Positions 1 to 9,574 of a stretch of 22,884 nucleotides of DNA are shown here, piece after piece (within the stretch, counting starts at the first letter, position 1; each line of letters starts with the position of its first letter). Location of the stretch: the IMG/VR virus record IMGVR_UViG_3300009172_000067, positions 1 through 22,884 of that record; one strand, written 5' to 3'. Origin of the DNA: a virus. The notes beneath the pieces are model-generated. The model made no database searches, was not told the DNA's origin, and saw only the letters and a program-made list of their open reading frames with translations. A program made the position numbers and the translations under genes.

Positions 1-734
1 GCCGCAAGTATACCAGCTATTTCTTGATAATTTTCTTTTAAATTGGAAGTATCACCTCTTATAATTTCGGTAATACCAGTAATACCTTGTGCAAGATTCG
101 AGGATAAAAGACCCATTGCTTCTTCAGCTGTTTTAATATCCGGAACATCAATATTTAATGATCTAAGCAACCCTGATGTAGCCTTTACTACTTCATTACC
201 TAATTCTTTTCCAGCTTCTAGAACTGCTGGTGTCGCAATCGCACCCAAAATAGCACCAATTATTCCACCCTTTTTACCGAATAGTATAGTGCCTATACCA
301 CCCGTAACAAGTCCTCTTTCTACTGATGCACCAATTTCAGCAGAACCAGTTGAGCTTTCTACATATCTACCAATTTCGTCTGCGAATGAAACCATAAGAG
401 CGCCTGGCAGAGCTCTACCTAGCATTTTTAATGCTCCGCTACCAACAGTACTAGTTAATCCTGCTATACCGCCTATAGTAGCGAGGTCGCTAAATCGAGA
501 CCCTTGGCCACTTTGGCTTACTATCGGAGTTGATGTTCGCCCTTGGGCCCTCCCTTGAGATTTACCCTGGCCATCCCTTTGAGCATCGCGCTGTCTTTCT
601 AACGAATCACCACCTGTAAAATATTCAACTAATTTGTCGATACCTTTCTGAGTGCCGCTTGTATTAGCGCTAATAGAATTAAGAGATTCTTCTTGCTCGT
701 TTAGCTGCTTGGTAACTGCTTGTAATGTGCTCAC
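1..734 (-). CDS. Probable tail tape measure protein, N-terminal part (cut by window edge)
   Basis: An uninterrupted minus-strand frame runs from a GTG start at 734 to the left edge, giving 244 residues without a stop; the C-terminus is missing. The first ~60 residues are polar, rich in Q, E, K and R, and look helical or coiled-coil, including a Q/G/R-rich stretch around residues 45-65. Then come glycine- and alanine-rich hydrophobic segments (about residues 85-115 and 140-175), as in tape measure proteins, which fix tail length inside the tube and help DNA enter the cell. The GTG shares bases with the TGA ending the preceding frameshift extension (GTGA), so translation is probably coupled; only a weak AGG lies upstream. 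The position directly after gp26 and a frameshifted tail-chaperone-like frame supports the call, but no specific family was recognised, and another large virion protein is possible. Confidence 0.55.
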   Translation of the reverse strand, partial: MSTLQAVTKQLNEQEESLNSISANTSGTQKGIDKLVEYFTGGDSLERQRDAQRDGQGKSQGRAQGRTSTPIVSQSGQGSRFSDLATIGGIAGLTSTVGSGALKMLGRALPGALMVSFADEIGRYVESSTGSAEIGASVERGLVTGGIGTILFGKKGGIIGAILGAIATPAVLEAGKELGNEVVKATSGLLRSLNIDVPDIKTAEEAMGLLSSNLAQGITGITEIIRGDTSNLKENYQEIAGILA

Positions 735-910
735 TGCTGTCTAGCCTGTTCGTTTTGATCTTTAAGATGATTTACTAGCATACCTAGATAAATCTCCCTC
801 TCCCATGGAATCATACTATCAATATCAGTTAGCGAATAATTATAATTCTGCAATAACTGAAAATTCGTCACGTAATAATTCTCAAGTGTGTCATGAGAGA
901 GGTTTAAAGA
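731..910 (-). CDS. -1 frame extension of gp26 (59 codons, tail-chaperone-like)
   Basis: After the seven-T run at 910-916 the -1 frame is open for 59 codons and ends at TGA 733-731. Read from the slip it starts SLNLSHDTLENYY and contains NYNYSLTDIDSMIPWEREIY at its centre, ending in a charged helix rich in Q, N and E. The PWEREIY-type motif after a YSLT segment is, from memory, typical of the C-terminal part of gp26-like proteins in other T4-like phages. Joined to gp26 through the slip the product would be 295 residues. An independent start would be GTG at 871-869 (46 codons), but it has no clear Shine-Dalgarno, whereas the open frame runs right back to the slippery site. It overlaps the tape measure start by GTGA, the same place that lambda gpT occupies before gpH. 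Confidence 0.7.
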   Translation of the reverse strand, partial: SLNLSHDTLENYYVTNFQLLQNYNYSLTDIDSMIPWEREIYLGMLVNHLKDQNEQARQQ

Positions 911-1617
911 AAAAAATCACTGAGGCCCTCTAGCCGTAGCGTATTATCTTCTTTACATGATGTACAGATAAATGGTTCTTCATGAACCATAACTGGTAGA
1001 CTTTCTGTAAATTCTATAATCTCATCTAACTGAGTTGTTGTTAAAGAATCTACAAATTTCTCAACGTCTTCTCTTGACTCATCCTTAAAAGAAATATTCT
1101 CTGCATCTGTTAGTAAACTATCAAAACAACATATAACAGATCTAACAATCCTTTCACCAGAAGATAGTTCTAAATCATATGCCTTTGCCGATATCATATC
1201 ATTATATGTAGGAGCCTTAAGCTTCAATATAATATTTTCACTTAATTTTATTTCTTTTGTTATTGGATTTTTTATTACCATTTTAACAGAAGATATATCA
1301 ATCTTTACATTATTAGGAGCTTCGCAACTTGTACACTTTGTAACAACTTCGGCAGTTTCACCGGCCGACTTTGCTCTAACTTGGGCAAACAAGTAATCTG
1401 CATCATATGTTGGGATTTTATATGCATCAATGTCTTGACAACATGATTCAATACAATCTAACATTCCTATAATGATTTGATCTAAATCCTTTGATTCAAG
1501 TGCAATCATAAGATTCTTCTGTTCTTTAACCAAAAATGGTCTAAATTTTATTTGTTTTCCTGTTGATGGTAATTCTGTAACATACTTTGGTACATCATTT
1601 AGAACTGGTAATGCCAT
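904..1617 (-). CDS. 26: Baseplate hub protein gp26-like (T4_baseplate family)
   Basis: A 237-residue protein (T4 gp26 is 208) beginning with MALPVLNDVP and the segment LPSTGKQIKFRPFLVKEQK, which is characteristic of the T4 baseplate gp26 family. Two CTSC motifs (C95/C98 and C218/C221) could form a zinc-binding site. In T4, gp26 takes part in assembly of the central baseplate hub. The start has a good Shine-Dalgarno (AAAGGAAAA) a few bases upstream, 21 bases after the tail tube gene. The last codons are GAT TTT TTT CTT TAA, which place a T TTT TTT heptamer in the register used for -1 frameshifting. The gene therefore probably makes two products, 237 and 295 residues, in analogy with lambda gpG and gpGT. 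The family call is solid; the exact hub role is inherited from T4. Confidence 0.85.
   Translation of the reverse strand: MALPVLNDVPKYVTELPSTGKQIKFRPFLVKEQKNLMIALESKDLDQIIIGMLDCIESCCQDIDAYKIPTYDADYLFAQVRAKSAGETAEVVTKCTSCEAPNNVKIDISSVKMVIKNPITKEIKLSENIILKLKAPTYNDMISAKAYDLELSSGERIVRSVICCFDSLLTDAENISFKDESREDVEKFVDSLTTTQLDEIIEFTESLPVMVHEEPFICTSCKEDNTLRLEGLSDFFL
910..916 (-). other. Putative -1 ribosomal frameshift site (T TTT TTT)
   Basis: Seven consecutive T residues on the minus strand lie four codons before the gp26 stop. In the gp26 frame they read (GA)T TTT TTT, which fits the X XXY YYZ rule for tandem -1 slippage. After slipping, the next codon is TCT and the ribosome avoids the TAA at 906-904, entering a 59-codon open frame. 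No obvious downstream stem-loop or pseudoknot was found by eye. A missed base in the homopolymer is the alternative: an eighth T would fuse the two frames directly. Confidence 0.65.
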
Positions 1618-1638: not shown

Positions 1639-2316
1639 TTATAATGTTCCGCCAAATCCAATTCCACCACCAATATTTGATAATAATGAAGGGGTTTTAG
1701 ATTCCCAATCAGTGTAACTTAATTGTACACTGAATTTCATAACTGCATCTGTTGCATCATCACTCAACTCAATTCCAGATAGAGTTGTCGGAAATGCGTC
1801 TTTTAATTCTACGGTGTATACACTTCCACCGCCTAATTCTAAATTTGCTGAGATAGGCCCGAATGTAGCTGTGCGGCCTAATATAGGTTTTCTTAGTTGG
1901 TGTATTTTAACAGATCTAACATATGTGTCTTTATAGTTAACATCTTTGTTTTCATTAATAATTGTAGAGTACCACTCATCAAAATAATTTTTTACACCAT
2001 AGTCATTTAATAGGTGAAATGAAAGCGTGACATCATCAACTGCATATCCGTTAGGCATCTTTTGCATTTCAAGGCCACGAGTAACGTTCATTGTTAATAC
2101 TTGCCTGCCTGGTAATTGTGCTGCATTACATAAGGTGCTTAATTCTCTGCCGTTAGGTTGGTTGTTGCCGATCAATCCTGGAATTGACGGAATTAATCCT
2201 CCCAAAAGATTACCAACAGAAAATCCAACAGGGCCTAATTCAACCATGAAGTGATTAGGTCTCGCGAATCCTAATCTGGTACTAGCTAAACCTTTTAGCT
2301 CATCTATTGTTGCCAC
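1639..2316 (-). CDS. Tail tube protein family gp19 (tube or tube-initiator paralogue)
   Basis: A 225-residue protein with the features of the T4 gp19 tail tube family: an N-terminal RPNHFMVEL strand, a CNAAQLPGRQ segment, the NGYAVDDVTLSFHL strand, YFDEWYSTII, and a C-terminal FSVQLSYTDW strand. These proteins form hexameric rings that make the tail tube. It is longer than T4 gp19 (163) and carries a glycine/proline-rich insertion at about residues 33-55. It is not beside a gp18 sheath gene but inside the hub cluster, so it may be a tube-initiator or gp54-like paralogue instead of the main tube subunit. The start is GTG, overlapping the upstream TAG by one base (TAGTG), with AAGGA about 11 bases upstream, so it is probably translationally coupled. 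Confidence 0.75.
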   Translation of the reverse strand: MATIDELKGLASTRLGFARPNHFMVELGPVGFSVGNLLGGLIPSIPGLIGNNQPNGRELSTLCNAAQLPGRQVLTMNVTRGLEMQKMPNGYAVDDVTLSFHLLNDYGVKNYFDEWYSTIINENKDVNYKDTYVRSVKIHQLRKPILGRTATFGPISANLELGGGSVYTVELKDAFPTTLSGIELSDDATDAVMKFSVQLSYTDWESKTPSLLSNIGGGIGFGGTL

Positions 2317-4576: not shown

Positions 4577-5344
4577 ATGATGTATTTTAGAGATTACCGA
4601 GATATCATTTATAAATTTGGAAACGAAGATTATAGTGTAGGATTCCAAGATTTAAGTACATATGTTGATGTTATTGATGAAGTTAAATCAAATAGCTCAT
4701 TTTATTTAACAACTCATATTCCGGAAGGATATCGGCCTGACCAATTTTCGTACAGACTTTATGGTACTCCTTTGTATTACTGGACTTTCTTCTTACTTAA
4801 TGACACTCTTCGTGAAAGCGGTTGGCCGTTATCAAATGAGGAATTGATGGAAAAGGCTAAACATGATTATCCGAATCAAGTTATTAATGTTCGCGGATCA
4901 TTTGAATTTAGGCTTAATGGCAGAGTGATAGATAGTATGTTCTTGCCAGGAAGAACAGTTACTGATGGAACTGCTAGCGGAGTTGTCGTGCATAGAAATT
5001 TAGATTTAGGGCAAATTGTGGTTAAGAAAACTACTGCCGCTGATTTTACAGCTGGTAATAACTTAACAGGAATTGTTGGCACACGAACTGAAGACGATTC
5101 AATATTAATCCATTCAGTTGATGTTTCTGAATTCAATGCAGCCCATCATTACATTGATGGAAATAAAAACTTGGTTGACATTGATCCAACATCAACAACC
5201 GGAGCTGCTAACCTTACAGAAGTGACTATCATGGAAGAACTTAGTACACAAAATGAATTGCTAAGAGAAATTCGAGTATTGACTGAAAGTAGTATAGGTC
5301 AAATCGTGAGTGCTTATAAACAAGCTGTTAGGTCAACAATTTAA
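4577..5344 (+). CDS. 53: Baseplate wedge protein gp53
   Basis: A 255-residue protein (T4 gp53 is 196). The N-terminal 100 residues carry the family pattern: YFRDYRDIIYKFG, a V-I-D-E-V helix, RPDQFSYRLYGTPLYYWTFF and LLNDTLRESGWPLS. gp53 joins neighbouring wedges to complete the baseplate ring. Residues about 115-200 (strands with VVVHRNLDLGQIVV and GIVGTRTEDDS) look like a beta-domain inserted or added compared with T4, and the end (QNELLREIRVL ... IVSAYKQAVR) returns to the typical C-terminal helix. Two adjacent ATG codons (4577 and 4580) can serve as start, with AGAAGGG upstream inside the end of gp48; translation is probably coupled. Confidence 0.88.
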   Translation: MMYFRDYRDIIYKFGNEDYSVGFQDLSTYVDVIDEVKSNSSFYLTTHIPEGYRPDQFSYRLYGTPLYYWTFFLLNDTLRESGWPLSNEELMEKAKHDYPNQVINVRGSFEFRLNGRVIDSMFLPGRTVTDGTASGVVVHRNLDLGQIVVKKTTAADFTAGNNLTGIVGTRTEDDSILIHSVDVSEFNAAHHYIDGNKNLVDIDPTSTTGAANLTEVTIMEELSTQNELLREIRVLTESSIGQIVSAYKQAVRSTI

Positions 5345-5345
5345 A

Positions 5346-6680
5346 ATGTTTAATAGAGAAACCACACTTGGTTACGTATTAGAATCAGCTATCCTACAAA
5401 CTTCAAGAGTTGAAGATCAAGGCACTGATATATCTAATATTGTAACTGATTTTGAAATATATGAACATATTGATAAACCGTACTTAACCGGCAAAATCAT
5501 ATTCTCTGATCATGGTATAGTAGAAGCCTATAATATTATGGGCGGTGAAACACTTACGTTAACTATCAAATGCACTATTCCAAAGATAGAAGACTCCCGT
5601 GAAATTAAAAAAGTATTTGTAATAAAAGAACAGCTGCGAAGCGTTAAAACAAACCAAAAAACCGAAGTTGTTGTGTTTCAACTGATTGAGCAACATGTAT
5701 TTTTATCAGAATTAATAAACATTAATAAAGCATATAACGGAAATTTTGGTGAAATTATTTCTGAGATTATGTTTTCGTATCTAGGTAAAACCGTAGAATA
5801 TACTGACAACATATTTGAACAGAATGTAAAAGTCATTGTACCTAATATGAACCCAATTGCAACATGTTTGTGGTTTAAAAATAGAATAACTAGTACAGAT
5901 CAATTGCCATTTTTTTTATTTTCTAATCTTGGGGATGATAAACTAAGATTGTATGATTTAGGCTCTATGATTAATAAAGAACCAATGAATGTGTCACTTC
6001 CATATGTGTATAGTATAGCATCTGGAACTAGTCAGGAAATGAAAAAGCATGTATCAATTCAATCGTATGATAGTAGAAACACAAACGATATTCAAAAATT
6101 AATTAGATCCGGTGCAGTATCATCTAAAACGGGATTTATAGACACAACGCGTGGAACGGTAAGCGAAGTAAAGTTTGATGCAAGAGAAGCTTTATCTGCG
6201 TTATCTGAAAAAGATTATATTCCTAAAATACAATCTAGTATCAATCATGGATTTAATATAAGCGCTAATGATAAAAATATTCATGAATATGAATCTAGTA
6301 TATCCACCCATATCTCTTCAACAAGTGCTTATCAAGAAGTATCTGGAGGATTTAATTCTTTTAGAGAAGAGCCGAAGCCACAGGGTTATAGAAATAGAAT
6401 AAACGCTAATGCAATATTTCAGTTTATGATAAAGTCTCCGTTATCTATTCGAGTTAATGGAATCGATTATATTATGGGTAAAACGCCAGATAATTATACT
6501 CTTGGTAGAAACGTACGAGTATTATTCTTTAATAATCTAACAGAAGACAAGCAAGGTTATGACATAGCTAAGTCTGGTGACTATATGATATATGGCACAA
6601 AGCATATATTTACAAAAGAGAGATACGATACAAATCTACTCCTTGCTAAAATCGCCAACTTTGATGAGAGCTCTTTATGA
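5346..6680 (+). CDS. 27: Baseplate hub protein, gp27-like
   Basis: A 444-residue protein beginning MFNRETTLGYVLESAIL. The first half has the pattern FEIYEHIDKPYLTGKIIFSDH and a GGETLTLTIKC strand, as in gp27/gpD-type hub proteins that trimerise under the tube and hold the gp5 spike; T4 gp27 is 391 residues. The end has a GINGIDYIMGK-like and YDIAKSGDYMIYGTKHIFT pattern typical of the second tube-like domain in these proteins. Placement directly before the gp5-like gene, with an ATGA overlap, supports this. A GTG 36 bases upstream (5310) would add 12 residues overlapping gp53; the ATG one base after the gp53 stop is preferred. Sequence similarity to T4 gp27 itself is weak by eye. Confidence 0.65.
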   Translation: MFNRETTLGYVLESAILQTSRVEDQGTDISNIVTDFEIYEHIDKPYLTGKIIFSDHGIVEAYNIMGGETLTLTIKCTIPKIEDSREIKKVFVIKEQLRSVKTNQKTEVVVFQLIEQHVFLSELININKAYNGNFGEIISEIMFSYLGKTVEYTDNIFEQNVKVIVPNMNPIATCLWFKNRITSTDQLPFFLFSNLGDDKLRLYDLGSMINKEPMNVSLPYVYSIASGTSQEMKKHVSIQSYDSRNTNDIQKLIRSGAVSSKTGFIDTTRGTVSEVKFDAREALSALSEKDYIPKIQSSINHGFNISANDKNIHEYESSISTHISSTSAYQEVSGGFNSFREEPKPQGYRNRINANAIFQFMIKSPLSIRVNGIDYIMGKTPDNYTLGRNVRVLFFNNLTEDKQGYDIAKSGDYMIYGTKHIFTKERYDTNLLLAKIANFDESSL

Positions 6681-7534
6681 ATACATTTTATGGTGATAAT
6701 AATAGATGGTTTGTTGGAAAGGTCATTTCTGTAGAAGACCCGTTAGAGCAGGGAAGAGTCCGTGTTCGTATTTTTGGTGTACATCCAGAAAATTTAAATG
6801 ATGTAAAAGAAGCAGATCTCCCATGGGCACAAATTATGACTCCTATTACTGAAGGTGGTGTATCTGGTATAGGAACTACTACAGGTATCAAAAGAGGTTC
6901 TCAAGTATTTGGAATATTTTTCGATGGAAAGGAATCCCAGCTTCCGGTCGTATTTGGAAGTATACCTAGATTTGAATTTAGAGAATCTACTGAAGAACAA
7001 GTTACTGAAAAGGCTACTGTCCAACCATCGGTGAATGATGCTCAAAAAAGAGCTATCGGAAGTTCAAATGCTGAAAAAGCTTTTAACTATTTTTTATCAA
7101 AGGGATTTACAGAGAAGCAATCGGCAGGTATCCTTGGTAATCTAATAGTAGAATCTAATGTTGACCCTTTAGCAATAAATGATACTGAAAGGAAAGATGG
7201 TAGTATTGAAGGTAGTTACGGTATTGCACAATGGAATCCAGCGCCTGGCGCACAAAGATATCAAGAATTATTAGTATGGTGCGGTATTAACAATAGAGAT
7301 GTTTCTTTATTAGAAACTCAATTGGATTATATTATTTATGAATTAAATTTACGTAGTACCTATTATGAATTACATAGACTTAAAGCTGCTGAAACAATTG
7401 AAGATGCTGTTGCTGCGTTTGAAAGATATGAAAAGCCTGAAGGATGGACTAACAATAATCCTATAGCAAAATCAAGACAAAAAAGAGTAAATGCTGCAAA
7501 AACATTTTACTCAGCACAAACTGGTATTGGATAA
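6677..7534 (+). CDS. 5: gp5-like hub protein: OB domain plus phage tail lysozyme
   Basis: A 285-residue protein in two parts. Residues 9-100 match the OB-fold N-terminus of T4 gp5 (RWFVGKVISVEDPLEQGRVR, then LPWAQIMTPIT, GVSGIG, GSQVFGIFFD and VVFGSIP). Residues 128-282 are not T4 lysozyme but resemble the phage tail lysozyme group (Phage_lysozyme2): AFNYFLSKGFTEKQSAGILG, NLIVESN with likely catalytic E159, and SYGIAQW at 180-186. It would cut peptidoglycan glycan strands during tube penetration. The C-terminal triple beta-helix of T4 gp5 is absent and appears to be a separate gene at 9574. Start ATG overlaps the previous TGA (ATGA). Confidence 0.85.
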   Translation: MNTFYGDNNRWFVGKVISVEDPLEQGRVRVRIFGVHPENLNDVKEADLPWAQIMTPITEGGVSGIGTTTGIKRGSQVFGIFFDGKESQLPVVFGSIPRFEFRESTEEQVTEKATVQPSVNDAQKRAIGSSNAEKAFNYFLSKGFTEKQSAGILGNLIVESNVDPLAINDTERKDGSIEGSYGIAQWNPAPGAQRYQELLVWCGINNRDVSLLETQLDYIIYELNLRSTYYELHRLKAAETIEDAVAAFERYEKPEGWTNNNPIAKSRQKRVNAAKTFYSAQTGIG

Positions 7535-7537
7535 ATT

Positions 7538-9574
7538 ATGGCTCAAATAACACAAAAAGCTTTTAATAATAATAGAGTTGTTCTAGATCAGACGCCCAAC
7601 AGAATTATTTCTGTTACACAAAAAGGATCAGGAAAATCTTTTGGTACTGGGTTATTTGATTATACTATAGAAAACAATACAATAGTATTCAAAAAAGCAT
7701 ATGATGAGATTACTGTAATATACGAATCTAGTATTGCAGGCGAACGCGAAATAGCTACAGAAAAGCAATTATTAAATACAAGGCTTGGTAAAACTATTAC
7801 GAGCACTGTCATTCCAAGTCTTAAAGCTACTGCTGCAAAATCACAATCTAAAGCTGCATCTCTTAATCAGTCAGAGCTTTCGAAAATAGTTGGAGCCCTA
7901 GCATCTGGGTTTCAATCAATAGGAGAAGATTTTAGAGAAAACATTGGTACAACTGATGAGCCTTCTCCAGCAATATTACGTCAAGATCCTTCGGCTAGTA
8001 TTGGAATTAAAAAAACTTGTGCATTAAAAGGTGCCTTATCAATTTTTGCCGGATCGAGTGTTAATGACGGGTTTCTTAATGCAAGCGTTGGTTCTTCAGA
8101 CCCGGCCGGAATAAAGGCTTCACTCGAAGGTTTGTTAGAACTAGTTACTCCGACTGCACAAGATTTAGAAGCGGTATTAGCATCTGTATCTTCATTACCC
8201 GATTTAGTAGGTGAAGCTTCACTATCTGATCCTATTAATGAGATAACACAAGCAAGCCAAGTTGCTTCAACCCAAATTGATAGAAAATTAAATAATCCGA
8301 TAAGTAAACCTGGCATAAGCTTTATGAATTTACTTGTAAGCGCATTGAATACTGTAAAAAGCGAAGCGCCTGTAAGTCAGATCAATACTTCGGTAGTCTC
8401 ACAGAGAATTGATGAAAACGGAAGAACTGTTAATTTTAATTTAGTTGATGAAAAATCTAATACATCATTATCTGAAGCAATTACACAAAGTGATGCATCA
8501 TACATTCCAAGTACAGTTGATGTGTATGATATTAATAGCAATTCATTTAAGTGGTTTGGCGGCTTAACAGACTTAGATACGTATGTATTTGAACCAGTTG
8601 ATACGGTCGAAGAGCTAGAAGCTGAGTTAATAAATACAAAAAGAGAATTAACAGGTACGGTTATCCATTGGACGCGAACACACACAGATCAATTTATAAC
8701 TGCAAGGGATCTACATTTACGAGATCTTCAACGACAAAACAGAGCGCTTGGAAAAGACTATAGCATATACGCAAAAGAAGCCGGCATTCAATATCATTAT
8801 ATAGTATTAAGAAATGGAACAGTTCAACGTGGGCGACCACTATCTAAAACTGGGCTGACTGGTACTGCGTGGGCTAAGAGAGGAATTCATATTGCATTTG
8901 TCGCTGGATATAATTCACCGGCCGGAACTCCTAATTATGAGCAGACGCTTTCTAGTGCGTCTATAACTGAACAACAATGGTTATCATTTGAGCAAGTCTT
9001 AAAAACTTTGTATAAAGTATACCCCGGAATGTCAGTTGTAGGACACAACGATGTTAATCCAGTTTCTACTTGCCCAGGCTTTAACGTGATTGCATATACA
9101 GAGTCTAACTTTAATAAGTCAGTAGTATATGATGACGTTGCAAAATATGATGAAGCCTTTACTACCGAAGAACAAGTTAATAGGCTTTCAAAGAAAATTA
9201 TTAAAGAGACTGAAGGTGCTACTGGTCCTTTATTAAGTTTAGCAGAAAAGTTAAAGGGTGCGTTTGCACAAACAGATCCTATAACTGGGGAACAAAAAAT
9301 TCCGACTCCAACAGAGCTATTGCAGGATGCCCGAGATTATGAACAGTTTAAAGAAGAGTCTTTAAAAAATCTTACTCAGATTGAAAAGGAAATCACTAAA
9401 GCTATTACAGAAAATGGTTTAGATGATGCCCTACGGGATGCGTCTAATGCAATAAAGACAGCATTAGAAAGTGAGCTTAACATCACAGAAAATGCTACTA
9501 TAAAATCTAGGAAAAACTTACTAAATGCAAATGCAACTTATAATAGTATTGCCGGTTGGGAGGATCTACCATAA
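7538..9574 (+). CDS. Baseplate hub structural protein with N-acetylmuramoyl-L-alanine amidase domain
   Basis: A 678-residue protein. Residues about 371-525 resemble the Amidase_2/T7-lysozyme fold: TGTVIHWTRT gives H377, YHYIVLRNGTVQRGRP gives H420 and a typical strand-turn, GIHIAFVAGY is a core strand, and VGHNDVNPVSTCPGF gives H503 and C512. H377, H503 and C512 fit the three zinc ligands. Such enzymes cut the bond between muramic acid and the stem peptide. The first 370 residues (a small beta-rich start, then helical alanine/serine-rich sequence) and the last 150 residues (coiled-coil-like, K/E-rich) are of unknown role, probably structural. It lies between the gp5-like and spike genes, so it is very likely a virion hub component, not a free endolysin. 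No holin or signal peptide is seen. The start is three bases after the previous stop. Confidence 0.8.
   Translation: MAQITQKAFNNNRVVLDQTPNRIISVTQKGSGKSFGTGLFDYTIENNTIVFKKAYDEITVIYESSIAGEREIATEKQLLNTRLGKTITSTVIPSLKATAAKSQSKAASLNQSELSKIVGALASGFQSIGEDFRENIGTTDEPSPAILRQDPSASIGIKKTCALKGALSIFAGSSVNDGFLNASVGSSDPAGIKASLEGLLELVTPTAQDLEAVLASVSSLPDLVGEASLSDPINEITQASQVASTQIDRKLNNPISKPGISFMNLLVSALNTVKSEAPVSQINTSVVSQRIDENGRTVNFNLVDEKSNTSLSEAITQSDASYIPSTVDVYDINSNSFKWFGGLTDLDTYVFEPVDTVEELEAELINTKRELTGTVIHWTRTHTDQFITARDLHLRDLQRQNRALGKDYSIYAKEAGIQYHYIVLRNGTVQRGRPLSKTGLTGTAWAKRGIHIAFVAGYNSPAGTPNYEQTLSSASITEQQWLSFEQVLKTLYKVYPGMSVVGHNDVNPVSTCPGFNVIAYTESNFNKSVVYDDVAKYDEAFTTEEQVNRLSKKIIKETEGATGPLLSLAEKLKGAFAQTDPITGEQKIPTPTELLQDARDYEQFKEESLKNLTQIEKEITKAITENGLDDALRDASNAIKTALESELNITENATIKSRKNLLNANATYNSIAGWEDLP

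Follow-up and report, generated by a model that had tools for sequence, protein, structure and literature searches.

The window analyzed here is the complete 22,884-base virus fragment IMGVR_UViG_3300009172_000067, and the last gene of the row described below is therefore cut at the record end. On the minus strand, a gene for a tail-tube-like protein is followed by a gp26-type gene, by a short extension in the -1 frame, and by the beginning of a probable tape measure gene (Table 1). The 3' end of the gp26 gene reads AGT GAT TTT TTT CTT TAA, with a run of exactly seven T bases (916-910) in the X XXY YYZ register (T TTT TTT). In the -1 frame, 59 open codons (910-734) precede a stop at 733-731 and encode a segment that reads SLNLSHDTLENYY...YSLT...PWEREIY...RQQ; a GTG codon at 734-732 forms a GTGA overlap with this stop and is the start of a frame that runs off the record. 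The initial annotation had described the T run as a -1 slippery site opening 59 codons that carry the YSLT and PWEREIY motifs and whose end overlaps the next start as GTGA, and direct reading of the sequence confirmed these features. The two product lengths that it gave, 237 and 295 residues, also hold: the sequence predicts a short form of 237 aa and a long form of about 295 aa. The tail-tube-like neighbor is also present in C48C1, Milchi, KVP40, and Rhizobium I1_18.

Table 1. Features at the gp26-type locus of the window
Feature	Position	Strand	Basis
Upstream neighbor in the gene row, tail-tube-like protein	1639..2316	-	phrog_45 tail tube, E=5e-32
gp26-type gene, short form (TAC-N), 237 aa	904..1617	-	PF12322, phrog_150, AlphaFold2 model with 2OB9_A match
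Shine-Dalgarno-like GAGGG, 9-nt spacer to heptamer	926..930	-	Sequence and synonymous-codon test; putative stimulator
-1 slippery heptamer T TTT TTT, in frame	910..916	-	Read directly; same place in 93/93 loci
-1 frame extension (gp51 C-terminus; TAC-C), 59 codons and stop	731..910	-	phrog_634, end of phrog_150; conserved in 85 loci
Next gene, probable tape measure protein, GTG start, cut by record end	3..734	-	Position, homologues

Three other parts of the window deserve mention. In the gp5-type hub protein (6677-7534), the stretch after the N-terminal domain matches parts of profiles for tape measure proteins and endolysins (phrog_9570, 1e-16; phrog_20388, 9e-7) and is possibly a domain shared with them. 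The 678-aa protein encoded between the hub genes (7538-9574) has an amidase domain at residues 365-552 (phrog_822, 6e-23). The wedge-subunit gene (4577-5344) and the next tail gene (5310-6680) overlap by 35 bases with the listed GTG start, and the true start may be further in.

In profile searches, the 237-aa protein matched PF12322 ("T4_baseplate," E=6.6e-47) and phrog_150 ("baseplate hub," E=1.6e-49). The 59-residue extension matched the last 47 positions of the same phrog_150 profile (235-281) as well as phrog_634, "baseplate hub assembly catalyst" (E=3.3e-23). The gp26-like C-terminal motif reported in the initial annotation is thus present, although its identity as the C-terminus of gp51, to which the extension is homologous by these sequence matches, had not been named there. 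Searching with the extension by tblastn retrieved 612 phage records, in which the corresponding region is labeled gp51 or a hypothetical protein or is left unannotated.

An AlphaFold2 model of gp26, built from 39 sequences, reached a pLDDT of 92, and its top match in the PDB was the HK97 tail assembly chaperone (TAC) 2OB9_A (Z 7.8, 84 of 107 residues, rmsd 3.9; the next unrelated match had a Z of 4.9). A Z below 8 may by itself reflect a common arrangement, but 2OB9_A is the top match, and its family is the one predicted by gene order. The aligned part comprises model residues 1-86, the N-terminal third of gp26 only. By Foldseek alone, 2OB9 ranked seventh, with a weak E-value, and a model of T4-type gp51 had no 2OB9 match among the PDB matches listed. 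Sequence searches of the PDB with both alignments gave chance matches only, with no similarity to any solved chain. We consider this model-based evidence to be of moderate strength in suggesting that the short form has a TAC fold.

The conservation of the junction was assessed in loci collected from viral contigs by peptide patterns inside gp26, none of which covered the junction itself; for an 80-locus set, the patterns were restricted to the N-terminal third of gp26. The junction was readable in 93 loci, the window and isolates included, and 86 of these are less than 80% identical. An in-frame NNT TTT TTN occurs at the "xFF" end of gp26 in every one of the 93 loci (as TTTTTTC in 47, TTTTTTT in 42, TTTTTTA in 3, and TTTTTTG in 1), and in every one the extension begins at the slip in the -1 frame, never in frame 0 or +1. 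Since all loci have the heptamer at the same place, with the extension invariably in the -1 frame, the site cannot be explained by chance. The zero-frame stop follows within 0-1 codon past the slip in 89 of the 93. The same layout was found in six distant isolates, namely KVP40, Cr30, Milchi, Melnitz, OspM_OC, and Rhizobium I1_18.

The codon preceding TTT TTN in the heptamer is GAT, AGT, TCT, AAT, GGT, or GCT, so that its third base, the X base, is T throughout, despite the change of residue among Asp, Ser, Asn, Ala, and Gly. For the encoded residues and at the codon usage of these genes, the probability that the X base would always be T in the 86 loci is about 10^-16.8, and the probability that the first Phe codon would always be TTT is about 10^-10.8; both figures assume independent loci and overstate significance because the loci are related, the true probabilities being larger. 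The extension, 56-69 codons long, stays open and is conserved across 85 loci; differences at codon positions 1, 2, and 3 are 0.42, 0.24, and 0.56, as coding sequence predicts, and its residues are conserved starting at the fourth codon after the slip. Judged by these sequence comparisons, the slip site is real and deeply conserved.

The Leu-Glu-Gly codons that lie 10-15 bases upstream of the heptamer favor GGAGGG or GAGGG beyond the expectation from the codon usage of the genes. The mean energy of pairing with the 16S rRNA tail is -6.6 kcal/mol compared with an expected -4.9 kcal/mol (z about -11 to -13), whereas eighteen other positions tested in the last 60 codons gave z values of only -1.5 to +4.3; the bias is thus confined to the GAGGG site. 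Across the 86 loci, equivalents of GAGGG situated 9-10 nt upstream of the slip are kept via synonymous codon choice. The element resembles the internal Shine-Dalgarno stimulator of dnaX, and on this sequence evidence GAGGG is probably a stimulator of the slip. A downstream stem-loop stimulator was also looked for, but the signal was weak (mean z of -1.0, with 20% of values below -2), and we do not claim one.

The gene that follows the extension is homologous to ORFs of 515-568 aa at the same position in two of the collected loci, L015 (3e-17) and L033 (1e-15). Among its positional counterparts, the one in HTVC008M gives matches to tape measure profiles, the one in Cr30 is annotated as tape measure, and the one in L035 has a weak match. 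The truncated gene of the window gave no significant tape measure match in a PHROG profile search, and a search of viral contigs with it found no homologue. In 77 of 86 loci, the next ORF of at least 100 codons begins within -20 to +26 nt; in some phages, a small ORF intervenes before the next long gene. We conclude that the next gene likely encodes the tape measure protein, an assignment that is made by position in this record.

Taken together, we are confident that the locus is the TAC cassette of a marine T4-like (Kyanoviridae-type) phage, in which a -1 slip, as read from the sequence, would yield a short and a long form. Most ribosomes would stop at the gp26 stop codon and release the 237-aa short form, while a minority would shift back by one base at U UUU UUU with two Phe tRNAs in place, possibly aided by pairing of GAGGG, about 9 nt upstream, with 16S rRNA. 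The slipped ribosomes would produce the 295-aa long form with its gp51-type C-terminus. If the two forms behave like lambda gpG/gpGT, the abundant short form would coat the tape measure protein encoded by the next gene, and the scarcer long form would recruit tail tube subunits.

On the other hand, gp51 could be a separate short gene with its own start just after gp26, translated by coupling to gp26 termination. Many GenBank records do annotate short gp51 ORFs (e.g., 1807-1980 in S-PM2 and 1876-1980 in C48C1), and a Shine-Dalgarno-like sequence sits upstream. However, initiation at such a start needs no NNT TTT TTN, and in T4 the complete gp26 domain is part of the gp51 polypeptide itself. The start codons themselves are missing: in 79 of 86 loci the -1 frame has none upstream of the slip, and in 54 of 86 the first possible start is at a codon index of at least 8 or there is none in the first 20 codons, while residues 4-9 after the slip (L, S, H, L) are conserved and lie ahead of the first start in most loci. 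For lack of start codons, an independent start of gp51 was rejected, and we regard it as very improbable.

Slippage of RNA polymerase rather than of the ribosome on the T run could also make both products, and the window and about half of its relatives do have a T7 homopolymer. Yet the T run is only six bases long, with C as the next base, in 42 of the 86 nonredundant loci, and such a run is short for transcriptional slippage; furthermore, the register with X=T and the upstream Shine-Dalgarno-like site suit slippage of tandem tRNAs. This makes a transcriptional origin of the two products marginally less credible even than a separate gp51 start. A sequencing error might be suspected at one homopolymer in one uncultured record, as might a recently broken gene, but the same split is seen in 93 of 93 loci and in the six distant isolates. 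Among the relatives examined, none has the two frames fused into one at this locus, which makes a base-call error at a true run of eight T untenable. An error was rejected because relatives share the split frames, and its probability, like that of a recent break, is negligible. The comparison with relatives that the initial annotation had called for was run, with both frames and the slip site deeply conserved.

With the -1 slip as the preferred reading, the locus can be set beside T4 and other phages. In T4, gp26 and gp51 are encoded by separate genes on opposite strands. Residues 1-201 of T4 gp51 correspond to PF12322 (4e-52), and phrog_634 spans residues 147-246; because gp51 thus holds a gp26-like domain together with the extension, it represents the long form and gp26 the short form. 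The gp26 genes of the T4 group have no heptamer, their ends reading TTC TTT, TTC ATT, TTT ATT, and similar, and the two-gene layout is also found in Aes508 and Proteus PM2. T4 therefore has a short and a long form from two genes with no slip site, whereas the window has one gene with a slip site. The initial annotation expected two forms in a T4-like phage from one gene with a slip site, a layout shared by the 93 loci; T4 itself uses two separate genes. T4 gp26 also weakly matches the gp28 family (phrog_1140, E=0.0009; L009:3803-4429 and L009:6349-6882). This match hints at a possible distant kinship between gp26 and gp28, whose gene lies immediately before tape measure gene 29 in T4.

The likeness to lambda gpG/gpGT, where short and -1 extended forms come from one locus directly before the tape measure gene (PMC5009743), was already drawn in the initial annotation, and the layout holds here before a gene that is of tape measure type by position. 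The predicted N-terminal fold of gp26 resembles the HK97 TAC (2OB9). In contrast to the lambda and HK97 proteins, gp26 of the window is longer, with an added beta domain that has two CxxC pairs in this phage. In Pseudomonas phage Adele (Vandenendeviridae/Andersonviridae), a -1 shift at a conserved T-rich site similarly joins TAC-N with a second frame located downstream, ahead of the tape measure gene, although the site is GTTTTT and the phage family is another one (PMC12846349).

Among the papers covered by a literature search on gp26, gp51, and frameshifting, there was no primary paper on cyanophages. The abstract of the 2022 study by Vladimirov, Gautam, and Davidson is said to name T4 genes 26 and 51 and to report frameshifting in several T4-like groups. 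As cited in later papers, this study (Virology 2022, 566:9-15) identified the TAC genes of T4-like phages (PMC10885494, PMC12846349); the PRFect paper cites it for T4-like phages that have, in place of a frameshift, separate genes for a short TAC and for a long fused version (PMC10885494), and another cites it for polyT slip signals in T4-like TAC-N genes (PMC12846349). Even earlier, a 2010 review counted gp26 and gp51 among the hub assembly chaperones (PMC3004832). Thus, the proposal in the initial annotation that gp26-type proteins act as tail assembly chaperones is well supported by the 2OB9 fold match and the layout but is not a new idea. The concept of a TAC frameshift in T4-like phages was published in 2022, and the window is a further example rather than a discovery. 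What is possibly new is the scale of conservation, at 93 loci, and the synonymous bias toward a Shine-Dalgarno-like sequence.

In four of the collected loci, a stand-alone short gp51 is annotated from an internal start with the first residues left out (L011:1801-1980, L012:1801-1980, L102:2001-2198, and L014:1801-1989). The annotation of gp51 as a stand-alone gene is probably a widespread misannotation, and hundreds of records from cyanophages, pelagiphages, and other T4-like phages with a stand-alone short "gp51" or nothing at this place should carry one joined gene. The finding helps explain why T4 needs gp51, a protein that is essential in assembly and yet absent from the finished particle. 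On balance, we lean toward the view that in Kyanoviridae-type phages the synonymously kept Shine-Dalgarno-like element helps set the ratio of short to long form, and that the T4 lineage escaped this arrangement by having two copies, gp26 and gp51, the short one without a slip site. The frameshift lineages and the two-gene T4 lineage offer a clean natural comparison of recoding versus gene duplication as ways of setting a protein ratio.
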